Shown here: positions 20,663 to 33,374 of the stretch, in pieces
How the letters are laid out: every line of letters starts with the position of its first letter
Numbering within the stretch: position 1 is the first letter of the stretch
Assembly: GCA_003155495.1 (NCBI GenBank)
Contig: PMDB01000027.1
Location: 1-35,592, forward strand
Direction of reading: 5' to 3'
Length of the DNA stretch: 35,592 bases
Origin: Ignavibacteriota bacterium
Lineage (GTDB): Bacteria; Bacteroidota; Ignavibacteria; UBA10030
Notes under the pieces: model-generated
The model's database searches: none
What the model saw: the letters and a program-made list of their open reading frames with translations, nothing else
Told to the model about the DNA's origin: nothing
Program-made: the position numbers and the translations under genes

Positions 20663-22678
20663 TTATTGTAAGAGAATCATTTTCCGAGTCTGAATACTGT
20701 TTTGACTTTGTAAGCGGTAGAAATAGATGCCGCTGGAAAGTCCTTGCGCATTGAATGTTGCATGATAACTTCCAGCATTTTGGAATCCATTGACTAATGT
20801 GCGCACTTCTTGGCCAAGAAGATTATACACTTTCAACTCTACAATACCAGATTGATTCAATGCATAGTTAATCGTTGTTGATGGATTGAATGGATTCGGG
20901 AAATTTTGCTCGAGCATGAATTTTGTTGGCTGAAGGGTTGAAGTCTGGGTCACACCTGTCACTTCATCGATCGACAGATCGACGTTGGCGTTTACAGGAT
21001 CTCCTGTGGTACTGTAGGAAACAGTAGCAGATTTTGATGCCGTCTCAGTATTATATCCCAGCTTATCGACCGTCACGGTATAGGTACCGGGAGCCAGGCC
21101 TTCTATACTGTAATTCCCATTCTCATCCGTGATTGCATACCCTGAGACCACACCATTCCGATTTGCATAGACAAGAGCGCCTGCTACTGAGGCGGAACCC
21201 GATAAAAGACGAACAGCGCCAGAAATACTGGTGTATCCGTTCATAGAAGAAGGAATCTGGTGCACATAAATATCGATACCATCTATAGTGTTCCCACTAA
21301 TGTCCACTTTAGCCGCTTTCTTCCATCTTGTACTTGCGGTATCAGTTGAATAGAAAGCTGGAGAATAATTACCGAGTGGCACTGCAAACACAAAGTACGA
21401 TCCTGGTAATAATGAATCAACTGAAAATGCACCAAGTGAATCTGTATCAACGACGTACGAGCGAAAACAATTAAAGTTGTCTTTCGAGGTCCATCGATCT
21501 CGATATGCAATTATGCGGGAAGGGACACCGATACCTTGTGCTGAATCGAGCACGCTTCCTGTGATTGTTCCAAGAGCAACCGACGGAAGCGGCGCAAGAA
21601 TAAAGTTGACTCCTGAGCTGTCATGTCGTAGTGCTAACAGATTTGCCGATAGCAGATCAGATTGATTAAAATAAAATTCCGTTGCATATCCTCGAGCTTT
21701 AGCGAAGGCGATGTATGACCCCTGAGGAATTTGAAGCGAATATTTGCCGAGCGAGTCGACTTTGGCGCTGTAGACATGATTCGATTTTCCATCGAGCATG
21801 AAATCGCCCCACCAAGCATTCAAATTGAAATATTCTCGATAATCATCAACGGTAGTTTTACTATTCAACGCAAATCCGGATTGTACATAGAAGATATCCG
21901 CAGCTTTTATTGGAAGACGATTCGTATCGGTTACAACGCCTGATACAGTAATCTTCGGCAATCTGACAACACCACCTTGAAGTTTAAAATTGACGGCGAG
22001 TGTGACAGAAGGAGAATCAGGAATAATAATCTTATCTGCATCGCTAGGGTTGTACCAACCATCGTACCATTGGCTTAGATATCGAGGCGTAGGCGAGATT
22101 GCATGTACCTTATACACACCGGGATCAACATGCGAAATCCGATAATATCCATTATCATCTGTCTTAGCGGAGTATGCATAACATCCATTATTGAGTGAAG
22201 GATACAAAGGAACAGGATCTGTGGATAGAGCTTGCAGTACTTCGATAATAATATTAGAAATGCCGGTATTTAATGTATCCGTCACACGTCCTTGTACAAT
22301 CCCATTGCCGCCGGTTACTGTCACCATAAATGATTGATAGGCAATATCTCTTTTATTCGATCTCGCTATCAGGGTTATTGTATACCATCCTTTCGCTGCC
22401 GGGATCCAATTAACAACACCTGATAACGAATCAATAGTCAGACCATGAGGATTGTGTTTATCTGTAAAATATCGGATAATCTCAGTGGAGTCTGCAGTGA
22501 TAGCTTGAGTCGTATAGGAATAAGCAACACCCCGTTGACCATAAAGAGGTGGTTGAGAGATAAACTTGATTTTATTCCGAAAAGGTGGTGCTGGTGTATT
22601 TTGCGATAGAAGGGACTGAGTAAAAATCAGTGCGATGGTTAATACGGTTATTGCAAAAAACCAGTATTTATTTTTCAC
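20663..22678 (-). CDS. T9SS-sorted surface protein with repeated carboxypeptidase-regulatory-like domains
   Basis: 671 residues. The start is GTG (22678), set by AAGGAG 8 bases upstream. Signal peptide 1-25; an Ig/cadherin-like domain at about 35-122 (ending in WIPAAKGWYTITLIARSN); four carboxypeptidase-regulatory-like beta-sandwiches near 125-215, 243-340, 370-440 and 480-567, each with a GxVxD opening and a PGxY close (DPGVYKVHAIS, LPGSYFVFAV, APGTYTVTVDKLGY). The last 88 residues are a type-A sorting domain (EQNFPNPFNPSTTINY, then LGQEVRTLV and SGIYFYRL) for export through the type IX secretion system. It follows the regulator/kinase operon, and a sigma54 promoter lies in the gap. A surface adhesin, scaffold or binding protein is likely; no catalytic motif was seen. 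Confidence 0.92.
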   Translation of the reverse strand: MKNKYWFFAITVLTIALIFTQSLLSQNTPAPPFRNKIKFISQPPLYGQRGVAYSYTTQAITADSTEIIRYFTDKHNPHGLTIDSLSGVVNWIPAAKGWYTITLIARSNKRDIAYQSFMVTVTGGNGIVQGRVTDTLNTGISNIIIEVLQALSTDPVPLYPSLNNGCYAYSAKTDDNGYYRISHVDPGVYKVHAISPTPRYLSQWYDGWYNPSDADKIIIPDSPSVTLAVNFKLQGGVVRLPKITVSGVVTDTNRLPIKAADIFYVQSGFALNSKTTVDDYREYFNLNAWWGDFMLDGKSNHVYSAKVDSLGKYSLQIPQGSYIAFAKARGYATEFYFNQSDLLSANLLALRHDSSGVNFILAPLPSVALGTITGSVLDSAQGIGVPSRIIAYRDRWTSKDNFNCFRSYVVDTDSLGAFSVDSLLPGSYFVFAVPLGNYSPAFYSTDTASTRWKKAAKVDISGNTIDGIDIYVHQIPSSMNGYTSISGAVRLLSGSASVAGALVYANRNGVVSGYAITDENGNYSIEGLAPGTYTVTVDKLGYNTETASKSATVSYSTTGDPVNANVDLSIDEVTGVTQTSTLQPTKFMLEQNFPNPFNPSTTINYALNQSGIVELKVYNLLGQEVRTLVNGFQNAGSYHATFNAQGLSSGIYFYRLQSQNSIQTRKMILLQ

Positions 22679-22738
22679 TTTTCTCGCTCCTTATCAAAGG
22701 TATTCTATGATGAGAATGGATTATTTCACAAAAAACGA

Positions 22739-22754
22739 TGCAATACATATGCCA
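22739..22754 (-). promoter_or_regulatory. Sigma54 (-24/-12) promoter for the T9SS surface-protein gene
   Basis: On the minus strand the site reads TGGCATATGTATTGCA. Against the consensus TGGCACG-N4-TTGCW it keeps TGGCA and TTGCA and has the required GG-N10-GC spacing. The predicted start near 22728 gives a leader of about 50 bases before the GTG at 22678. The gene for a sigma54 activator lies just upstream in the same strand order. Confidence 0.65.
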
Positions 22755-22805
22755 CAGAGAAAACCAGGAAAACTATTCGAAATGGGGAACTCTCTTTTTT
22801 TGCTC

Positions 22806-22838
22806 GTGCAAGATATGCACCACACTGCATTTCTTGCG
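22806..22838. promoter_or_regulatory. Possible activator-binding site upstream of the sigma54 promoter
   Basis: GTGCA-AGATA-TGCAC (22806-22820) is a perfect dyad. GCAAGA (22808-22813) also has its complement TCTTGC at 22832-22837. TGCA or TGCG recurs at 22807, 22816, 22826 and 22835, spaced 9-10 bases. The centre is about 80-95 bases upstream of the predicted start site, a normal place for an enhancer-binding protein. The assignment is inference. Confidence 0.4.
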
Positions 22839-22840
22839 TA

Positions 22841-23623
22841 TCAGAAACGGATGGCAACTGTAAGAGTTGTTCCTCGTGGCTTGGATAGGTTTGATTCAAA
22901 TGAGAGGGGCAAATCATGTTGGGCTTGGAACACATCAATTTCCGATGCAACGTACACGACCGCAAATGCAACAAACGAAATAATTTCTGCTTTATAATAT
23001 CGGTTGTAAATATCATACTTCTCATTAAATTCCGACGAATGAGTTGCAGATAAATAATTTTGCCGGGCAGAACTCCGTAAAAATTCAAAAGCAATTCCAG
23101 CGCCTAATGTTGTAATGCCGGCTCCAAGGAAAAAGGTTCCTGCCGTCTTTCTGTCTTGGTGTAATTGTTCCCATCCGGGAAAAAGAATTGTCCGATAGGT
23201 GATGACAGGGCGCTCGATCAACACCGGGCCTCTGACAGTATCTTTCTCAGATTTCTTTAATGAAAGGAAGTGTTGCCGGGTTTCTTTAAATATGACGAGA
23301 ATCTTGGGTGAGGTATAAACAGGGTCAAGATCGCAGTCGGGTGCAAGCTTAAACATTGACATGAAATGCTCTTTTGCCAGTTCCGATTTTCCCTGGGCGA
23401 TCAAAGAGAAGGCAATGTACTTATGAACAGCTATGCGAACAGAATCGTTTAACACAGAATGTTCAAGAAGATGCCGGGCATTCAATTCTGCAGTTCTATA
23501 TGAACCGGTATTGTATAGAGTCTCAATTGTCTGCAGGGTCGAATGCGTAGAATCCTCCTGCGCACATGCACCATGCGCGGACACAGCGAAGAGAATGGAA
23601 ACAAATATTACTTTCTGTATCAT
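22841..23623 (-). CDS. DUF5683-like exported protein with TPR-like N-terminal half
   Basis: 260 residues with a signal peptide (1-21, ending GACAQE). Residues about 28-110 look like a helical repeat region (LYNTGSYRTAELNARHLLEHSV, YIAFSLIAQGKSELAKEHFMSMF), then YTSPKILVIFKETRQHF. The second half has RTILFPGWEQLHQDRKTAGTFFLGAG and two hydrophobic segments, resembling the DUF5683 family of Bacteroidota envelope proteins (PG-Q motif followed by membrane helices). Its ATG overlaps the kinase stop by four bases (ATGA), so it is coupled to the kinase. It is the last coupled gene of the operon; its role in the signalling unit is unknown. Confidence 0.78.
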   Translation of the reverse strand: MIQKVIFVSILFAVSAHGACAQEDSTHSTLQTIETLYNTGSYRTAELNARHLLEHSVLNDSVRIAVHKYIAFSLIAQGKSELAKEHFMSMFKLAPDCDLDPVYTSPKILVIFKETRQHFLSLKKSEKDTVRGPVLIERPVITYRTILFPGWEQLHQDRKTAGTFFLGAGITTLGAGIAFEFLRSSARQNYLSATHSSEFNEKYDIYNRYYKAEIISFVAFAVVYVASEIDVFQAQHDLPLSFESNLSKPRGTTLTVAIRF

Positions 23624-25152
23624 CGCTGTTTCTCAAAAAATATACACAGGGAGATTGTATCTTTGGATTTGATTTCCACTTCGCGGAGTACATCGACGAA
23701 GGAAGAATTTTTAAATCGCACTTGGTGTTTCCCCGGTGACAGCACGATTGGTCTCTCCAGGGGCGTTGTGTCTTTATATTGTTCATCGATGTATACTTCC
23801 GCCCAGGGAGTTGCAATACAATTAAGGAACCCTGCGCTCTTAATAAAATTCCCCGCAACATGGAGTTCCCTATTCTTCTTCACCGTAATGGTCTGATGAA
23901 TCGGACCAAACGATGGGTGCATGAATGTCACGGTATGTTTTCCTGTGGAAAAAGTTAAAGGTCTACTGAGAGGAGTTTCCCCGAAGAAAACATTGTCAAC
24001 ATATACCTTTGCCCACGGAGTACTGGTCAGAAGAACGGTACCGGAATCCATCGATAGCGGTATGGATGTTGTGGTTGAAATTTCCCGTTGTTTGAGCACT
24101 CGGGATTGCTGTAAAGGCTCAGGTTGAACAGGAGAAGAAATGCCAAGTTTTCTCTGAACCTCCCCATTCGTGTTCATACGTGCTGCAGTTGTATCCGACA
24201 ATACTGCCCGCAGAGTTAGTCCAGAAGTTCGGTAATTTGAAGAATGATTAACTGTAGCTAGAAAAAAAGCAAAAACTCCAAGGAGCACCGCTGCTCCGCT
24301 TAAAAGCCCTATTCGACGATTTCTTCTTGGTGCTGTAAGTGGAGCAGAAATGAATATGCTCGATCCGTCTTGATCCAGTGCGTAGAGTGCCTCCCTCGAT
24401 GTCGCGAACCTGTTTTTCTTCTTTGGCGCCAAGAGAAGTTTTAGAAATTTCACAAAATCAGGAGATGATTTCTCCACAAGATAATCAAGCATTTCCACTT
24501 TAAAAGAAAGTATTTTCTTGGCACACTCCGCATACGATGTTCCTTCGAAGAGGCGGTCGCCAGTCACAACTTCGACCAGGGTTGCACCCAGAGAAAAGAG
24601 ATCTGTTCTTTGGTCGATCTCTTCGTGGCAAACTTGCTCCGGAGACATATATGCTGGCGTTCCGAGCACCATTCCCTGCGCCGTTATTGTTGGAACAGAC
24701 GCAAGATATGCCAATCCAAAATCAGTAACCTTTATTGTTCCGTCTATCATCACAAGAATATTCCCGGGTTTGATATCACGATGAATGATTCCCCGGTCGT
24801 GTGCAACCACAAGTCCGCGGAGGGTATGCAATGCAACTTTTCTTGCATATTTCAGCGAACGAGTTGTCCCTGTGACGATGAGATTCTTGAGTGAAGTACC
24901 GTCGACAAATTCCAACACAATTGCCGGCGATCCTTCGTATTCGATTAACTCGTAGACCTGTACAATATGCTCGGAGCGAAGTGCAGCACAAGCCTGTGCT
25001 TCCCGCACAAAACGCTGATAAAGATCATGATCAGCGGCAAGGTGCTTGTGGAGCACCTTTAACAGGATACGTCGTTGCAGCACCGTATCAAATGCACGAT
25101 AGACGCTGGTAAAACTGCTCTCGCTGATCTTCTCTTCAATGGTAAACGGCAT
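23620..25152 (-). CDS. Hanks-type Ser/Thr protein kinase with two C-terminal PEGA domains
   Basis: 510 residues. The kinase domain (about 1-265) has Lys32 (LLKVLH), Glu51 of helix C, HRDIKPGN with Asp126, TDFG with Asp144 and the PAYMSPE activation-loop end, so it should be active. The nucleotide loop is unusual: the three glycines of GxGxxG are Ser10, Ser12 and Thr15 (ISESSFTSV). One transmembrane helix lies near 283-302 (GAAVLLGVFAFFLATV). Two PEGA repeats then lie in the periplasm, near 370-435 (TSTPWAKVYVDN, GETPLSRPL) and 437-505 (IATPWAEVYIDE, TTPLERPI). The stop of the sigma54 activator overlaps this ATG by one base (taATG). It probably senses an envelope ligand and controls the activator. 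Confidence 0.93.
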   Translation of the reverse strand: MPFTIEEKISESSFTSVYRAFDTVLQRRILLKVLHKHLAADHDLYQRFVREAQACAALRSEHIVQVYELIEYEGSPAIVLEFVDGTSLKNLIVTGTTRSLKYARKVALHTLRGLVVAHDRGIIHRDIKPGNILVMIDGTIKVTDFGLAYLASVPTITAQGMVLGTPAYMSPEQVCHEEIDQRTDLFSLGATLVEVVTGDRLFEGTSYAECAKKILSFKVEMLDYLVEKSSPDFVKFLKLLLAPKKKNRFATSREALYALDQDGSSIFISAPLTAPRRNRRIGLLSGAAVLLGVFAFFLATVNHSSNYRTSGLTLRAVLSDTTAARMNTNGEVQRKLGISSPVQPEPLQQSRVLKQREISTTTSIPLSMDSGTVLLTSTPWAKVYVDNVFFGETPLSRPLTFSTGKHTVTFMHPSFGPIHQTITVKKNRELHVAGNFIKSAGFLNCIATPWAEVYIDEQYKDTTPLERPIVLSPGKHQVRFKNSSFVDVLREVEIKSKDTISLCIFFEKQR

Positions 25153-26636
25153 TAATCTTTATTCCATTCTTTCAAACGGTACTGAAGCCAGCGCAAGGAA
25201 ACACCCAACTTCTCTGCTGTCCGTCTTCGATTTCCATCCATCTCGTCCAATGCTGTTTCAATGATCTGACGTTCAATCTCTTCGAGCGTCACCGAATTCG
25301 GAAGAATGGAGTTTCGTTGAGTAAAATCGAGCACAAGATCGGCAGGCGTCAATTGTGTCCCCTTACAGAGAACTACCGCACGCTCAATGACATTTTGAAA
25401 CTCCCGTACGTTCCCCTTCCACGGATTTGCAAGCAGCATGTGCATCGCATCCGGATGGATGCTGTCGATGGATCGTTTATACATTTGCGCTGTGCGTTGG
25501 AGGAAATGTTTTGCCAGGAGAGGAATATCATCTTTGCGTTCGCGCAACGGCGGGAGATGAATACTAACGACATTCAAACGGAAATAGAGATCTTCGCGCA
25601 TTGTCCCATTCTTCACTTCGCTTTTCAGATCCTTGTTGGTTGCAGCAATAATGCGAATATCTGCAGATCGAGTTACCGTGTCTCCAATACGACGGTACTC
25701 TTTTTCCTGAAGCAATCGAAGAAGTTTCGATTGAAGAGCAAATGGCAGATCAGCGATTTCGTCCAGGAAGAGAGTGCCTCCATCAGCAACTTCGACCAAT
25801 CCTTTTTTGGCCGCATTCGCACCAGTAAATGCTCCGCGAACATAACCAAATAATTCACTTTCAATCAACGATTCGGGAATAGCAGAGCAATTCACAGCCA
25901 CAAATGCAAGTCCCTTGCGCAATCCATTCTCGTGGATAGCGCGCGCAACAAGTTCTTTCCCTGTTCCACTTTCTCCCGTAATGAGGATAGCCACGTCAAT
26001 GTCCAACACACGTTGTACAATTTCCAACGCCCTTTTCCAAGTATCACTTTTACCGATAATGTTTGTGAATAAATGCGTAACGTCGGCTTCGTTTTTCAAC
26101 CGTTCATTTTGATTTCGAAGCTCGGTATAACGTTTCGCATTCTCGATGGCAATACCAGCAAGATCGCCGAAGATGGTCAGGAATTTCAATGATTCGTCGT
26201 TAAATTCTTTCAGCATAGTGCTGCTGTCCAAATACACCGCACCAAACGTCCGCTCTCCCGTCCGAAGCGGGACACAAATGATGGACAATATTTTCTGGGC
26301 AATGATACTTACAGACGATTCAAATCGCTCGTCGTTTGGTGCATCAAAAGTCAGCACTGCTTCACCGGTATTGAGAACATTGGTCACCACGGAAGAGGAA
26401 GCGGCATATTCATTGCTCGTTCTTTGTGAAGAAAAGTTTTTCATCGTTACAACGTCATATCCGTTCTCTTTATTTGGATCAGCAAGAATAACAAACCCAC
26501 GTTCGGCAGAGAGATGTGTCATGGCGATCTCAAGTACACGTTCGAGCAGATTTTCCGGTTCCAAGATGGAGTTGATAGATCGTGCAATCTCATAGAGGGT
26601 ATTAAAGTTGTCTTGATGTATCTGTTCCATAATCAT
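25152..26636 (-). CDS. GAF-domain sigma54-dependent transcriptional activator (enhancer-binding protein)
   Basis: 494 residues. GAF sensor domain at about 12-168 (ERGFVILADP, CVPLRTGERTFGAVYLDS); AAA+ domain at about 190-425 with Walker A GESGTGKE (near 218-226), the sigma54-contact loop GAFTGA (near 267-272), Walker B GTLFLDEIADLP and arginine-finger region (RLLQEKEYRRIGD); Fis-type helix-turn-helix at about 448-490 (GNRRRTAEKLGVSLRWLQYRL). It has no receiver domain, so control is through the GAF ligand or the neighbouring kinase. Its ATG overlaps the lipoprotein stop by 4 bases and its stop overlaps the kinase ATG by 1. The natural target is the sigma54 promoter at 22739-22754. Confidence 0.95.
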   Translation of the reverse strand: MIMEQIHQDNFNTLYEIARSINSILEPENLLERVLEIAMTHLSAERGFVILADPNKENGYDVVTMKNFSSQRTSNEYAASSSVVTNVLNTGEAVLTFDAPNDERFESSVSIIAQKILSIICVPLRTGERTFGAVYLDSSTMLKEFNDESLKFLTIFGDLAGIAIENAKRYTELRNQNERLKNEADVTHLFTNIIGKSDTWKRALEIVQRVLDIDVAILITGESGTGKELVARAIHENGLRKGLAFVAVNCSAIPESLIESELFGYVRGAFTGANAAKKGLVEVADGGTLFLDEIADLPFALQSKLLRLLQEKEYRRIGDTVTRSADIRIIAATNKDLKSEVKNGTMREDLYFRLNVVSIHLPPLRERKDDIPLLAKHFLQRTAQMYKRSIDSIHPDAMHMLLANPWKGNVREFQNVIERAVVLCKGTQLTPADLVLDFTQRNSILPNSVTLEEIERQIIETALDEMDGNRRRTAEKLGVSLRWLQYRLKEWNKD

Positions 26637-27640
26637 TGTACCACAAACGGTGCTTCTTTTGAACGTGAGTAATTGCCAAATTCGTCAACGATAGAAATAG
26701 CCCATACATAATCACCGGCCGACAAAGTCAATCTGCTGCTATCAGCTGGAAACTGGAGTTGCAGAGAAGAAGAACGCACTTGTGTAGATGTCCACACCAC
26801 GTTTTGTTGACCTGGTACATCACGTGAGAGTGTGAGTGTGTATGTATAATTGAATGTTACATCCGGCGGTAACCATTGGAACAGCGGCGTAGGACCGCTG
26901 GTATCCTTTTGTGAAGTGGTCGGGTTGATATTTGGATAGGTGGGTGTCGCTGAATTTTCGATGATCCTCGACACATAAAATGGAGTACTGAGATTGACGG
27001 CGTTGCTTCGATCTCTCGAACGAATTCTTAACGGTTTGTTGACAAGCCATTGGATGGTATTCGTCGGTATATCGTATTTATCAATGGTGATTTGAAATTG
27101 TTTGGTTAACGGAATATAATCCATCGGAATCGAAAGAAGGGTATCAACAGTGAACCAAACGGAGTCCACATCCAGCCAGCCGTTCGGATCACTGACGGAT
27201 GCAGTAACATCGACAAAATATTGCGGACTCGGATAGTACTGATCGATTTTTCTTGTGAGAATATTTTGAGCTAGAACATATGGCGCACCGTTTAATTCAA
27301 ATACAACTTCCTTCGTTGTAAGGTTTTGAAGAACAACCTGCTGTGTATCGGGAACAAAATTCTCTTTGGCGCATACCAGTGTTTGCTTACCCATCGTGAG
27401 GTTTTTGAAAGAATAATTTCCATCTGCATCGCTTGAAACACTCACCCCGTCTTGCAATGAGGAGATGCTTGCTGAAACGATACCACTGTTCTGATTCAGC
27501 AGGAGAACTCGGCCTTTCACTGGAGCTGTGTTTGCGTACTGAGGCGAGCTTGGGTCCAGCGGATTGTCCCGAGGAGCATCCTTGCAACCAGAGATCAGCA
27601 TCAGCGCAAATAATAAAGATGTAGCTGTTAATTGCCTCAT
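26633..27640 (-). CDS. Surface/envelope lipoprotein with carboxypeptidase-regulatory-like domain
   Basis: 335 residues with a lipobox LISGC (acylation at Cys19). Residues about 40-115 form a carboxypeptidase-regulatory-like beta-sandwich (VKGRVLLLNQNSGIVSASIS, GNYSFKNLTMGKQTLVCA). The rest is beta-rich with a fibronectin-like segment (TPLFQWLPPDVTFNYTYTLTL, LSAGDYVWAISIVDEFGNYS). I know of no named family. It is the first gene of the coupled operon and shares its beta-sandwich type with the T9SS-sorted protein at the other end. It may be the envelope sensor or target of the pathway. No Shine-Dalgarno is visible before the ATG. Confidence 0.82.
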   Translation of the reverse strand: MRQLTATSLLFALMLISGCKDAPRDNPLDPSSPQYANTAPVKGRVLLLNQNSGIVSASISSLQDGVSVSSDADGNYSFKNLTMGKQTLVCAKENFVPDTQQVVLQNLTTKEVVFELNGAPYVLAQNILTRKIDQYYPSPQYFVDVTASVSDPNGWLDVDSVWFTVDTLLSIPMDYIPLTKQFQITIDKYDIPTNTIQWLVNKPLRIRSRDRSNAVNLSTPFYVSRIIENSATPTYPNINPTTSQKDTSGPTPLFQWLPPDVTFNYTYTLTLSRDVPGQQNVVWTSTQVRSSSLQLQFPADSSRLTLSAGDYVWAISIVDEFGNYSRSKEAPFVVQ

Positions 27641-27648
27641 AACAATAT

Positions 27649-27678
27649 AATATACTTTATTTTATCGAAACTTTACAA
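27649..27678 (-). promoter_or_regulatory. Possible sigma70-like promoter of the lipoprotein-regulator-kinase operon
   Basis: On the minus strand TTGTAA (27673-27678) and TATATT (27649-27654) are 18 bases apart, close to -35/-10 spacing. The -10 box ends only 8 bases before the ATG at 27640, so the transcript would be nearly leaderless, which agrees with the missing ribosome site. The surrounding sequence is AT-rich, so a chance match is possible. Confidence 0.35.
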
Positions 27679-27700
27679 GATAGAGAATAAAGCTGTCATC

Positions 27701-27755
27701 GGAGTAGTTTCGGAAGGTATCTCGGTTTAAACTCTGTAACCTTTCAAAGGTTCCC
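27701..27755. repeat. Intergenic repeat, copy A (3' side of the PAS kinase gene)
   Basis: The copy runs from GGAGTAGTTTCGGAAGG through TATCTCGG and CTCTGTAACC to AAAGGTTCC and contains the near-palindrome AACCTTT-C-AAAGGTT (27738-27752). It aligns with 33460-33510 on the other side of the kinase gene, sharing GAAGG, GTATCTCGG and AAGGTT in the same order and direction. Confidence 0.5.
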
Positions 27756-27902
27756 CGACTACAAGTACGCAACGTTCTTTGAGGGTCATAATTGTTTTTA
27801 AGTATTGAATTTTGTCAGTTGCTTCGAATATCTTGTTCTCAAACACTCCTTTGAGTTAATGTTCACAGATCATCTTCAAATTCATTCTAAAAAGTCCATG
27901 TC

Positions 27903-30900
27903 TCATTTTCCATCCAACACTTCCCTTATTACTTTCAGAACTTGCATGAGATCATACGGTTTATAGAGAAAATGTTGTATCCCCGCTTTTAGAAATTCCG
28001 ACTTCATTTCCGGATCAAGAAACCCTGTCGCTAGGATCATGTGTTCATTCGGTTTGATTGTTTTAATCCTCTGACACACCTCCAGGCCAGTCATATTGGG
28101 CAATCCAAGATCGGTAAGCACAAGTGCAATATCGTTTTTTCTCTCTTGATAGATCTTTAATGCCGTCAGTCCATCACCGGCAGAAAGAACGTTGTATCCC
28201 TTTTCAACAAGCACCATCCGCAAAGACATCATAAGCATCTCCTCATCCTCTACAACCAGCAACGTTTCTGTTCCGCCCGGAATTTCTTCCAATGTTTCTT
28301 CATCTTTTACACTGATTGGTTCTGCGACTTGTGATGCAGGTAAATACAAGCGGAAGGTCGTTCCCTTGCCAAGCTCGCTTTCCACATCGATAAATCCCTT
28401 ATGAGTATGAACTACTCCGAACACCACAGATAATCCCAATCCGGTTCCTTTTCCTATTCCCTTCGTTGTAAAAAAAGGCTCGAAGATACGCATTTGAGTC
28501 TCTTCGGTCATTCCTTCACCCGTATCACTCACTTCAATGCAGACATAACTGCTCGCAGCAGCGTCTGGATGTTGATGACGCAGACTTGTGACTGATACCA
28601 TGCGAGTATTGATGGTAAGTACACCGCCGCTCGGCATTGCATCGCGTGCATTCACACAGAGGTTCAGCAGCGCTTGATTTAACTGTGAACGATCTGCATT
28701 AATGCATGGCATTCCTTTTTCGAAATTTTGAGAATAGGTAAGAACCTTAGGAAATGTTTCAAAGATCATGGTCATAATTTCCATGACAACATCATTCACA
28801 TTCACTGCTTCAAATGCAGTTTCCGTTTTTCTTGCAAAGGTTAATATCTGCTGGACAAGTGTTTTGCCGCGCTGTACCGCTTTCGTGATCGTTTCAATTG
28901 CAAGGTCTAATTTTTTGGCGTCACCTTTGGATCTTTCAATGCTTGTGTTGTATGCCAGTATGATTCCTAGAATATTGTTGAAATCATGCGCAATTCCTCC
29001 GGCGAGAGTTCCTAATCCTTCCAACTTTTGCATTTGCCGCAGTTGCTCTTCTAAAAGCTTCTGCCCTGTGATGTCGCGAGCTGTGGACAGCGCACCGGAG
29101 ATTTTTCCAGTCGGATCTTTCAATACCCGGCACCACCAAGCAAGTAGTCGTTTTTCTCCATCTTTACGACGCTGCCAACTCTCCAAGTAGATTACACTAT
29201 CATCGCCTTTGAAGAGAGGTTGAATAATTTTATACGTATCTTGTTCACCCTCAAAGTAGAATAAAGCTTCTTTGCCGATTACATCATTACCGAAGAAATC
29301 AATGCCTGACCGATTCGCCCAGGTGTATACCTTGTCATTGTTCACCTCCATAATGATATCTGGAACGGCGGAGAGAATTGCTTCTTGGCGCATTGATAAT
29401 GTGCGCAGCTCTTCTTCTATCCGCTTACGTTCGGTAATGTCGAACAGGATTCCCTGAGTACCAGTGATCTTTCCGTCAGAGTTAACAACTGGTATTTTTA
29501 TGGCGTGAATAAACTGCTTGCTGCCTTCGGCATTCGTGTATTCTTCATCCAACTCAATGGATTTGCCGGTTTGCATGATCAATCTATGATGTCCCTCGCC
29601 TTCAGCGGAATACTTGATTGCAAGCCCCGTTGTGTCCTGTTTCGCTGCATCGCATGCGGCAACTTCCTGAGGTGTTTTGCCCAGAAACTCTTCCGGTCTC
29701 ATTTTTTTTAGCCTACAGAACCATGTGCTAACAAAATCATAGCGGCCTTCATAGTCTTTGCGAAAAACTCCGGCGGGCAGTTGCTCCACGAGCGAATGAT
29801 AAAGCGCTTGCGATTCCTGCAACTTCTCCTCAGCTCGCTTGCGCTCGGTGATATCACGGATGATACCAGTAAAAAAACGACCCGCCTTCGTCTCCCAGAT
29901 TGACAACGAAAGTTCTAAAGGAAATACACTCCCATCCTTTCGTAATCCTTCTAAATCAACAGTCTTACCGACAACGGTTTGATCTCCTCCAGATTGAAGT
30001 CTCTTCATTCCGTTGGGATGTCTGGCGTGGTGGTAAAGCGGCATTATGGAGGTGAGCGATTGCCCAATTGCTTCCGTATAACTGTAACCGAAAATTCGCT
30101 CAGCACTACGATTCCATCCAATGATAATCTCGCTGCTGTCGGCAGTGACAATAGCATCAGTAGCAGATTGCAGAACTGACCGATATCTCGTCTCGCTCTC
30201 CCGCAGCGCTTCCTCTGCTCGCTTGCGGTCGGTGATATCGCGAGTGGCTACCATCCGCATAGACTTGCCTTGGTAGATGAACTGCTTCGCGAACGCTTCG
30301 AGTATTATTCTTGTACCATCTGCTCGAAGAGCGGGAGTCTCAAAGCGTCCCTCTATCCCTGACGCAATGCGTTCACGGATGCGGTCGAGCATTTCGGCCG
30401 ATGTAAATTCAAGCAGGGATTTGCCAATGGCATGTTCACGCGCGTATCCGAACATTTGGCACATGGCATCATTCACTTCAATAATTATTCCCTTGTCGAG
30501 GATGGTAATCCCCTCAACCGTCGCTCCCCATAACTCGCGGAATCTGGATTCACTTTCCCGCAAAGCCTCTTCCGTCTTCTTGCGCTCGGTGATATCTACT
30601 ACAATACCGTTAAAGCGAACTACATTGCCATTCGCATCTCGCGAAGGACTTCCGCGGGACATTAACCATCGTACTGCACCATCGTGGCCGATTACACGCC
30701 ACTCTGCATCTAATTCTTTCCCTTCGCGCGCCGCTTCTTGTACCTTCTTTTCTGTTTTCTCGCGATCCTCTGGATGAATTGTCTCCCGCCATAATTCATA
30801 TGATGGCACACAGCTATGCGGCTCGAGACCATACAACTTCCATAATTCATCCGACCAAATATTTTCGTTTGTGAGTAGGTCCCATTCCCAAGTACCGGAA

Positions 30901-33374
30901 TTTGCGGACTCCAAAGCCAGGTGAAGACGATCGCTACTTTTCTGCAACGCTTCCTCTGCTCGTTTGCGGTCAGTGATTTCTCTTCCTTCACCCATAATGG
31001 ACTCGGGTCTTCCGTTCTCATCACGGATGAGGCTGAACCTGTTTTCCGACCAATACGTTGTACCATCTTTACGATAGAATTCAAGTTCTAAAGTACGCAA
31101 AATAAAATAGGTTGGGTCTGCCATCACTTTTTGCATCTCCTCCGAAAAGGCATCCATTGCCAATTGGAATGAGGCGGGTGCGAACTGTTGATCAAGAGGT
31201 AATTGCTGGAGTTCTTTCAGAGTATATCCCCGCAATTTTTCAACGGATGGACTAATGTATGTCGTTTTTAAATTCATATCCATGAGCCATATCGTGTCTT
31301 TCATATGGTCTGCCAGCAAACGGTACCGTGTTTCGCTTTGCTTGAGCAGCACTTCTGACCGTTTGCGGTCAGTGATGTCATTCATAGTAAGGTACCCAGC
31401 GATTATTTCTCCTTTATTATTATAAATCGGGTTTGCACTGACTAACTCCCAACGCCCCGTTCCATCCTTTCTGACAATGAACCGTTCTTCGTTTGATATT
31501 TTCTGTCCGGTTATCGCACGTGCCAACGGTAAATCTCTCACATCACCAATATTCCCCTGAACATCATAGTCCATATAGGAAGGCTTAAAATTCATGAGTG
31601 ATGTGCCGATATATGACGGCTCATCCTTCACTCCAAGAAATTCTCTGCAAGCCGGATTGATAATTCGTACTACAGCATCGGGCATGCTTACCAGAACCAT
31701 TGGAATCGGAGATTGTTCAAATGTTTGTTCGAGCAATATTTTTATCGTTGACAATTCCATCTCCGCCTGCTTACGCTCGGTAATATCGTAGAACGTGCTG
31801 ATCAAGTATTTCTTATCTTGCATCATGAAGATTTGACCCGATACTACGCCTTTGCGAATAGTGCCGGATTTATGATTCAGATCTGCTTCAAAATTTTGGA
31901 CAAATCCATTTTGCTTGAGCAATGATAAAAAGCGATCACGATCATAAGGATCTGTCCACATGTTCAAATCACCTGTTGTTTTGCCCAATGCTTCTTCCCG
32001 ACTGTAACCAGTCATTAGTGAGAAATTATCGTTTACCTCGAGCGTCTTTCCATCAGGTAGTGAAGTGAGAATCATTGATCCAGGTGCTACCTTGAATATG
32101 ACTGAAAATTTTTCCTCGCTTTCACGCAGCGCTTTTTCTGCCCGTTTGCGCTCGGTGATATCCTCAACAAATCCTTCGTAATGGCTGGGCTTTCCCTCTT
32201 GATCACGGACTATGCGCAAATACAGCATTCCATTCCAAATAGTACCATCCCTACGACGATAGTTATTTTCTATACTAGTCATGCCGCCGGTTTTCAGCAT
32301 GGCAGTTGCTACTGAGTTTCGTCGCGACGGTTCAGCATAGACCTGCTCAGAGATATTGGTAATACTGTTGACTGCTTCTTCGGGAGAATCATACCCCAAT
32401 AACCTGGCGAGAGCTGGATTTATATCAATAAACCTGCCATCGATTGTGGAATGGAAAATACCTAAGGCAGCATTGGTATAAAGATCATGATATTTTTCTT
32501 CGCTTTCCTGCAGTGCATCTTCCGCATGTCTGCTTGCTGATTCGGCGAGCCTGCGCTCAGTGATATCCTCTACTACCCCATCATAGTAAAGTGTCTTTCC
32601 TTGGGAATCGCGGATCGCGCGAGCACTCTCTCGTACAATGACGAGTGATCCATCCTGACGAATCCAAGCTGATTCAAAATTATCGACTTCGCCTTCCATT
32701 TCAATATTCCTAAGAAATACTTTACGTTGAGACGATTGTGCGAAACCAACTTTTGAAAGATTCCTTTCAGCAAGCTGCTCTAAAGATGAATAGCCAAGCA
32801 TTTTCACTAACGCTCGATTTGCTAAAAGTATTTTTCCGGCGGGAGTAGTTCGATATAGACCGACCGCGACATTTTCATAGAGCGAGCGGAACCGGAGCTC
32901 GCTTTCGCTTAATGCTTTCGCCGCCTGTTTACGCTCCTGTATCAGATTCCACTCGTGCAATGAACGCTCTATTGTGTGAGGCATTGCTTTAAAAGATTCA
33001 GTAGTCTTCACTACATAATCGAGCGCTCCTGCTTTCATCGCTTTGACGGCAATTTTCTCATCTCCAGAACTGATCATTACCACAATCGGGAACGATCCGG
33101 CTTCCGGAGGAGATGTCAACACCTCGAGAGCTTTTCCATCCGGGAGATACATGTCTATCAAAACTATGTCCGGCAATGATTTCGCAATGGCGCTGCGATA
33201 CTCCTGCAATGAACCTGCAACCTTCACCACGGCATTCGGGTCGGCGGATTGAATAGTATGGCGCATAACTGCAACATGAGTCGGTTCATCCTCAACGAGA
33301 AGAATGTATGGCAAATGTGATTTTTCTGGTGAGGATGCTTTTGGTTTTATTGTTGCTTTCTTATGTTGTGCCAT
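27903..33374 (-). CDS. Giant hybrid sensor histidine kinase: REC, ten PAS, HisKA/HATPase, REC
   Basis: 1823 residues with AGGAGCG before the ATG. N-terminal receiver at about 22-140, phospho-acceptor Asp74 (VLIDMYLP). Ten PAS units of about 110-140 residues follow, from about 156 to 1450, each closed by a DIT(E/D)RK-type linker and opened by an LRESE-type helix. The kinase core has the H-box GGIAHDFNN with His1463, N-box NLCVNARDAM, G1 DTGEGM and G2 GKGTGLGLS. The C-terminal receiver has VVEDEE and Asp1755 (LTDLGLP). No transmembrane helix is seen, so it is a cytoplasmic sensor that could integrate many inputs through PAS ligands. No separate response regulator lies beside it. Length is far above a typical hybrid kinase (about 700-1200). 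Confidence 0.95.
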   Translation of the reverse strand: MAQHKKATIKPKASSPEKSHLPYILLVEDEPTHVAVMRHTIQSADPNAVVKVAGSLQEYRSAIAKSLPDIVLIDMYLPDGKALEVLTSPPEAGSFPIVVMISSGDEKIAVKAMKAGALDYVVKTTESFKAMPHTIERSLHEWNLIQERKQAAKALSESELRFRSLYENVAVGLYRTTPAGKILLANRALVKMLGYSSLEQLAERNLSKVGFAQSSQRKVFLRNIEMEGEVDNFESAWIRQDGSLVIVRESARAIRDSQGKTLYYDGVVEDITERRLAESASRHAEDALQESEEKYHDLYTNAALGIFHSTIDGRFIDINPALARLLGYDSPEEAVNSITNISEQVYAEPSRRNSVATAMLKTGGMTSIENNYRRRDGTIWNGMLYLRIVRDQEGKPSHYEGFVEDITERKRAEKALRESEEKFSVIFKVAPGSMILTSLPDGKTLEVNDNFSLMTGYSREEALGKTTGDLNMWTDPYDRDRFLSLLKQNGFVQNFEADLNHKSGTIRKGVVSGQIFMMQDKKYLISTFYDITERKQAEMELSTIKILLEQTFEQSPIPMVLVSMPDAVVRIINPACREFLGVKDEPSYIGTSLMNFKPSYMDYDVQGNIGDVRDLPLARAITGQKISNEERFIVRKDGTGRWELVSANPIYNNKGEIIAGYLTMNDITDRKRSEVLLKQSETRYRLLADHMKDTIWLMDMNLKTTYISPSVEKLRGYTLKELQQLPLDQQFAPASFQLAMDAFSEEMQKVMADPTYFILRTLELEFYRKDGTTYWSENRFSLIRDENGRPESIMGEGREITDRKRAEEALQKSSDRLHLALESANSGTWEWDLLTNENIWSDELWKLYGLEPHSCVPSYELWRETIHPEDREKTEKKVQEAAREGKELDAEWRVIGHDGAVRWLMSRGSPSRDANGNVVRFNGIVVDITERKKTEEALRESESRFRELWGATVEGITILDKGIIIEVNDAMCQMFGYAREHAIGKSLLEFTSAEMLDRIRERIASGIEGRFETPALRADGTRIILEAFAKQFIYQGKSMRMVATRDITDRKRAEEALRESETRYRSVLQSATDAIVTADSSEIIIGWNRSAERIFGYSYTEAIGQSLTSIMPLYHHARHPNGMKRLQSGGDQTVVGKTVDLEGLRKDGSVFPLELSLSIWETKAGRFFTGIIRDITERKRAEEKLQESQALYHSLVEQLPAGVFRKDYEGRYDFVSTWFCRLKKMRPEEFLGKTPQEVAACDAAKQDTTGLAIKYSAEGEGHHRLIMQTGKSIELDEEYTNAEGSKQFIHAIKIPVVNSDGKITGTQGILFDITERKRIEEELRTLSMRQEAILSAVPDIIMEVNNDKVYTWANRSGIDFFGNDVIGKEALFYFEGEQDTYKIIQPLFKGDDSVIYLESWQRRKDGEKRLLAWWCRVLKDPTGKISGALSTARDITGQKLLEEQLRQMQKLEGLGTLAGGIAHDFNNILGIILAYNTSIERSKGDAKKLDLAIETITKAVQRGKTLVQQILTFARKTETAFEAVNVNDVVMEIMTMIFETFPKVLTYSQNFEKGMPCINADRSQLNQALLNLCVNARDAMPSGGVLTINTRMVSVTSLRHQHPDAAASSYVCIEVSDTGEGMTEETQMRIFEPFFTTKGIGKGTGLGLSVVFGVVHTHKGFIDVESELGKGTTFRLYLPASQVAEPISVKDEETLEEIPGGTETLLVVEDEEMLMMSLRMVLVEKGYNVLSAGDGLTALKIYQERKNDIALVLTDLGLPNMTGLEVCQRIKTIKPNEHMILATGFLDPEMKSEFLKAGIQHFLYKPYDLMQVLKVIREVLDGK
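29421..32575 (-). repeat. Degenerate repeats from PAS linkers inside the kinase gene
   Basis: A linker coding for a DIT(E/D)RKRAE-type segment recurs about nine times, near 29430, 29850, 30220, 30585, 30970, 31365, 31775, 32150 and 32560, at spacings of about 365-430 bases. The plus-strand core is GC(G/T)CTCGGTGATATC or a close variant. The linkers are much better conserved than the PAS cores between them, as expected if the array grew by unequal exchange at the linkers. Confidence 0.7.

Follow-up and report, generated by a model that had tools for sequence, protein, structure and literature searches.

How is the gene of a surface protein exported by the type IX secretion system (T9SS) transcribed when it lies just behind an operon that encodes a sigma54 activator? 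This arrangement is found in the window, i.e. the whole stretch of 35,592 nucleotides from an Ignavibacteriota bacterium that was analysed. A gap of 162 bases (22679–22840) separates the last gene of a four-gene operon from the gene of the T9SS-exported protein, and all the neighbours are on the minus strand (Table 1). A sequence-only reading had proposed that this gap carries a sigma54 promoter preceded by regularly spaced boxes, and this observation is confirmed. Judging from the sequences of this locus and of its relatives, the gap is very probably a dedicated activator-enhancer-sigma54 promoter unit for the adjacent T9SS surface-protein gene.

Table 1. Elements of the gap and adjacent genes, from the target gene to the first gene of the operon.
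Feature	Positions	Strand	Remarks
Target, 671-aa T9SS-exported protein	20663–22678	-	He_PIG, CarboxypepD_reg, Por_Secre_tail (Pfam, NCBIfam)
Ribosome-binding site AAGGAG	22687–22692	-	8 nt before the GTG at 22678
Sigma54 -24/-12 element TGGCATATGTATTGCA	22739–22754	-	12/12 to TGGCAYRNNNNTTGCW; kept in orthologous gaps
Spacer, operators to promoter	22755–22806	-	52 bp; length kept in helical-turn classes, sequence not
Proximal operator (putative) TGCATATCTTGCA	22807–22819	-	13-bp palindrome YGCA-N5-TGCR; 52 bp before the -24 box
Distal operator (putative) CGCAAGAAATGCA	22826–22838	-	Centre 19 bp from the proximal one
p260, 260 aa	22841–23623	-	Signal peptide, TPR-like helices, two long hydrophobic helices
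Ser/Thr protein kinase	23620–25152	-	C-terminal PEGA repeats
Sigma54 activator	25152–26636	-	GAF - AAA+ (GAFTGA loop) - Fis-type HTH; recognition helix GVSLRWLQYRLKEW
Lipoprotein	26633–27640	-	One CarboxypepD_reg domain; first gene of the four-gene operon

The promoter, the putative operators and the genes around them

The -24/-12 element has the GG-N10-GC spacing and matches all 12 specified positions of the consensus. It is located on the strand of the target gene, 60 nt before the GTG start, as the sequence-only reading had placed it, and transcription is predicted to start near 22728; in a close relative, an ATG is found at the position aligned with this GTG. The claim that no other good sigma54 match occurs in the intergenic regions of the window also holds, as a pattern scan of the window gives this element as the only match without mismatch and the sole match with one mismatch (26402, plus strand) is located within the activator gene. 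When the whole 3.59-Mb genome is searched by consensus patterns, the exact sigma54 pattern occurs four times (once for the reversed-pattern control), the chance of a 12/12 match at a given position being about 4.5e-7. The other exact matches were rejected as further promoters: those on contigs C55 and C77 are inside ORFs and that on C29 is a duplicated relic of the same promoter. The promoter claim presupposes an rpoN gene, and the genome encodes one copy (PF04552, E 1.2e-53).

Upstream of this element, the sequence-only reading had described a perfect GTGCA/TGCAC dyad and four TGC boxes centred near -90. The boxes stand, as two copies of one 13-bp palindrome, the proximal copy being the core of the dyad. 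The proposed centre does not, as the palindromes are centred at about -104 and -85 (mean about -95), 19 bp apart. In the genome, the tandem palindrome is found at two places only, the gap and the C29 relic, and the reversed-pattern control gives none. Autoregulation of the operon was considered and rejected: the region 27641–27902 carries no sigma54 match at up to 2 mismatches, and no tandem operator is found beyond the gap and the C29 relic.

The C29 relic (G000:C29:18194-18293; L002, L077, L194) and the locus L167 (G001:C57) belong to a cassette of about 490 bp that is 83% identical between two species. This duplicated cassette keeps the tandem operator and an 11–12/12 sigma54 site, followed only by a 74-codon frame-broken remnant of the T9SS gene; one of the species shows a 51-bp repeat on either side of it. 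The cassette could be a relic, act as a decoy site or serve as the promoter of a small RNA.

The target has the hallmarks of type A cargo of the T9SS, i.e. PF18962 and TIGR04183 above cut-off and a translocon encoded by the genome, here of the SprA type (SprA_N, E 9.4e-49). In the same way, the activator has the domain make-up of bacterial enhancer-binding proteins, Walker motifs included (PF00158, PF25601, PF02954 and GAF), and the GAFTGA loop is present; natural GAFTSA and GAFTDA variants of this loop occur in orthologues (L045 and L046; L141–L143). The three neighbouring gene pairs of the operon touch or overlap. Some p260 orthologues give weak DUF5683/TPR matches, and the predicted structure of p260 (pTM 0.43) is too uncertain overall to serve as a query for structural searches. 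Just upstream of the operon, the minus strand encodes a hybrid histidine kinase of 1823 aa (27903–33374), comprising about ten PAS domains and two receivers, one at either end; it lies outside the module conserved in relatives.

Conservation of the module and of the gap

Orthologues of p260 are found in 14 of 41 relatives. By profile, 39 of the 98 genomes of the order give a match at E <= 1e-3, about 31 of them a strong one (E below 1e-40, the diverged f4 family being left out). Where loci were inspected, the genus and several families share the gene order lipoprotein-activator-kinase-p260-gap-T9SS protein, and a T9SS tail is encoded downstream at most loci. Named genomes, when scanned, yielded 50 loci, most of them in MAGs of Ignavibacteriae and Bacteroidota and a small number in Calditrichota, KSB1 and unnamed bacteria; this sample consists of MAG assemblies that share ancestry, and its genomes are not independent.

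The sequence-only reading had made its promoter depend on the conservation of the -24/-12 bases in orthologous gaps, and these bases, together with the boxes, are kept across genera and families. The tandem palindrome and a sigma54-type site are found at all the 35 other Ignavibacteria-side loci that contain the gap, when at least 13 of 16 palindrome letters and a 9–12/12 sigma54-type site at one of three distances are required; the operator pattern was partly derived from these very loci, and matches outside them, as well as the case of the congener G003 (see below), are more independent tests. Operator centres are 19–22 bp apart in all loci. With the window counted, the distance from the proximal operator to the -24 box is 50–53 bp (n=24), 61–65 bp (n=10) or 72–73 bp (n=2), and no Ignavibacteria-side locus has a distance of 54–60 or 66–71 bp. 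These classes are about 10.5 bp apart, i.e. one helical turn, as expected if activator and polymerase have to lie on one face of the helix. Within the 51–53 bp class (21 loci), pairwise identity reaches 94% for the operator letters and 76% for the sigma54 letters, compared with 35% for the near-random spacer. Several orthologous sigma54 sites are weak (9/12, or TTGTA or TTGAA in place of TTGCA).

Four Calditrichota-side loci (L147, L148, L150, L155) carry the tandem with a sigma54 site at 97–98 bp, a distance that does not fit the helical phase of the 52/62/73 series. A contig labelled as a Spirochaetaceae MAG (L141), which may be mis-binned, also carries the module, its spacer being 72 bp long. 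In the genus g21 (L054, L056, L062), a hairpin, CCCCGAAA...TTTCGGGG, is located in the operator-promoter spacer, within the proposed loop, and resembles a terminator for the upstream operon. Leaders of about 130–160 nt past the -12 box are found at L062–L065 and L070, and they keep a GTCGTTCTCACATTCA-like stretch close to where transcription is expected to start. A diverged module with an extra T9SS protein between the kinase and p260 is found at L049 (G027) and L048 (G032); the L049 activator is 40% identical and has the helix SVRWVQMKL, and no recognisable operator follows p260 in G027 (f4 family).

Probable pairing of the activator with the operators, and other readings of the gap

The in-locus activator is the probable ligand of the two operators. 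The specific regulator-target pair that had been proposed within the locus gains support, at the level of sequence comparison, from linkage, co-distribution and a near-invariant recognition helix. This pairing would be wrong if the sigma54 promoter were real and its palindromes were bound by a different regulator, either another activator or a repressor. The genome does encode about ten further activators whose AAA+ domain is complete, but those that are readable have other helices, whereas the helix of the in-locus activator is nearly invariant in its orthologues and constant wherever the operator is found. In Calditrichota, the helix is GVSLRWVHYKMKEW-like and the operator is slightly different too, yet both persist. 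The operator and the module also co-occur across genomes and appear to have been lost together in G003, which leaves a different regulator as an unlikely explanation.

Co-occurrence was assessed with a combined operator and promoter pattern. Among genomes of the order, this pattern is found in 22 of the 31 that carry the module and in 6 of the 67 others (reversed control, 3 in total), with a Fisher p of 8e-10 that is optimistic as it ignores shared ancestry. When the module locus itself is left out, 19 matches are obtained in the 31 module genomes versus 6 in the 67 others. Off-locus tandem operators of module-bearing genomes are mostly intergenic, with an 11–12/12 sigma54 site 49–53 bp downstream, whereas those of genomes without the module are mostly in ORFs, with best sigma54 scores of 6–8. 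G003, which belongs to the same genus, lacks the module and has no full-length activator orthologue. It keeps the orthologue of a 318-aa lipoprotein that is found in three congeners and is absent from the window's own genome; the DNA upstream of this gene has neither operators nor a sigma54 site in G003, and both precede it in G001 and G004. G003 is thus, as far as can be read from these genomes, one natural co-loss of the operators and the module.

In the window's genome, the unit appears to be essentially single-target, plus the relic. The activator seems to control, in some relatives, a small regulon of exported proteins. Among its apparent members are lipoproteins, a TPR protein, a CotH/lamin-tail protein and a Big_5 protein, along with further exported proteins; between one and six tandem operators are usual for a genome of the family f5. 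By eye, some of the regulon proteins had looked Spy-like (LTxxQ), an identity that was dropped as Pfam did not support it.

It is quite improbable that the sigma54-like site is decoration and that the target is transcribed by the housekeeping sigma factor, which would use a TAnnTTTG-type -7 box close to 22700, or by polymerases that read through from the operon. The gap does contain TACCTTTG and two weak sigma70-like matches (22731–22702), and no terminator was found in it. However, a TAnnTTTG box is present in only 2 of 36 orthologous gaps, its -33 TTG partner and TTGAC-type promoters in none of the 36, and the start would fall almost on the ribosome-binding site, whereas the sigma54-type site is kept in all the orthologous gaps. 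Finally, a chance sigma54 similarity next to palindromes that would act at the RNA level, at the operon's 3' end, has almost nothing left to recommend it: the palindromes do begin 2 nt past the p260 stop codon and one genus has the terminator-like spacer hairpin, but the arrangement is reproduced, under the thresholds given above, in 0 of 2100 shuffled gaps (35 of the 42 real ones), the same operators precede unrelated genes at the same distance to the sigma54 site, and orthologous conservation together with the shuffles rules out a chance match.

Proposed mechanism and comparison with known systems

From the sites, their conservation, their phased spacing, the linkage and the co-distribution, all read from sequence, we infer binding by the in-locus activator, looping, the start site, a signal and a role of the kinase. 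The dedicated sigma54 unit could then work as follows. Dimers of the GAF-AAA+-Fis activator would bind the two palindromes and then oligomerise. The 52-bp spacer would be looped, and ATP would be used to open the complex of RNA polymerase and sigma54 at -24/-12, so that the adjacent gene of the T9SS-exported surface protein would be turned on; these steps are transposed from the biochemistry of sigma54 activators. A signal from the envelope or the surface probably reaches the activator by way of the kinase, the TPR/membrane protein and the lipoprotein, the path from the lipoprotein and p260 to the kinase and on to the GAF activator being speculative.

By analogy, the architecture is closest to the control of PEP-CTERM genes by PrsR in Proteobacteria, where a conserved and sometimes repeated upstream motif is followed by a spacer (mean 62.8 nt), a -24/-12 site and about 71 nt up to the start codon (PMC1569441). 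The PrsK/PrsR/PrsT set comprises a sigma54 activator and a TPR protein, the exported proteins carry a C-terminal sorting tag, and the control was predicted from the way motif and regulator are distributed together (PMC1569441). Both systems thus have an activator motif, a spacer and a -24/-12 site before genes of exported, tagged proteins, with a TPR protein in the set. In contrast to PrsR control, sorting here is by the T9SS, the activator has a GAF domain and not a receiver, the kinase is of the Ser/Thr and not of the histidine type, YGCA-N5-TGCR serves as operator, and the window's genome has essentially a single target. The activator was not retained as a PrsR (TIGR02915), as it scores 340.7 bits for a cut-off of 502.6 and has an N-terminal GAF domain without a receiver.

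In NCBIfam, the activator scores best against NifA (TIGR01817; 391.4 bits), a candidate that was likewise rejected since the cut-off is 528.85; the GAF-AAA+-HTH organisation is shared, but there is no nif context here and the operator is another one. Both NtrC and NifA sites are longer than the YGCA-N5-TGCR operator. Another likeness is with LuxO of Vibrio, a Fis-type activator with TTGCA/TGCAA-type half-sites before sigma54 promoters; LuxO carries a receiver domain, and its targets are small RNAs. Its half-sites are two bases closer (GCA-N3-TGC versus GCA-N5-TGC here).

In Bacteroidota, sigma54 (SM4) promoters supported by mutagenesis have been described in Flavobacterium psychrophilum, before envelope-stress genes, lipoprotein genes and remFG-sprCDBF among others (PMC9723704). 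There too, -24/-12 promoters drive the operon of a T9SS-exported adhesin, SprB; sigma54 control of T9SS cargo is therefore already known and not new. Unlike here, no activator or enhancer site was assigned in that work, and the gene set is another one (PMC9723704). The literature searched contained no paper on Ignavibacteria together with sigma-54, none that links a sigma-54 enhancer-binding protein to type IX secretion under the terms used, and none on the lipoprotein-activator-kinase-p260 module. Within this literature, the activator family, its operator and the kinase-linked module appear to be new.

A group with hardly any promoter data thus gains a complete and testable regulator-enhancer-promoter-target unit, with an operator code and rules of helical phase. 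This unit would link the surface proteins of the T9SS with one specific sigma54 activator and make the regulon predictable from sequence. The linkage to a Ser/Thr kinase raises the question of how such activators can be gated. A possible, still doubtful, answer is that a eukaryote-like Ser/Thr kinase, not a histidine kinase, gates the sigma54 activator in a surface-sensing pathway common to the Ignavibacteria-side Bacteroidota and Calditrichota, which would monitor T9SS export or the envelope and feed back on its own T9SS cargo.
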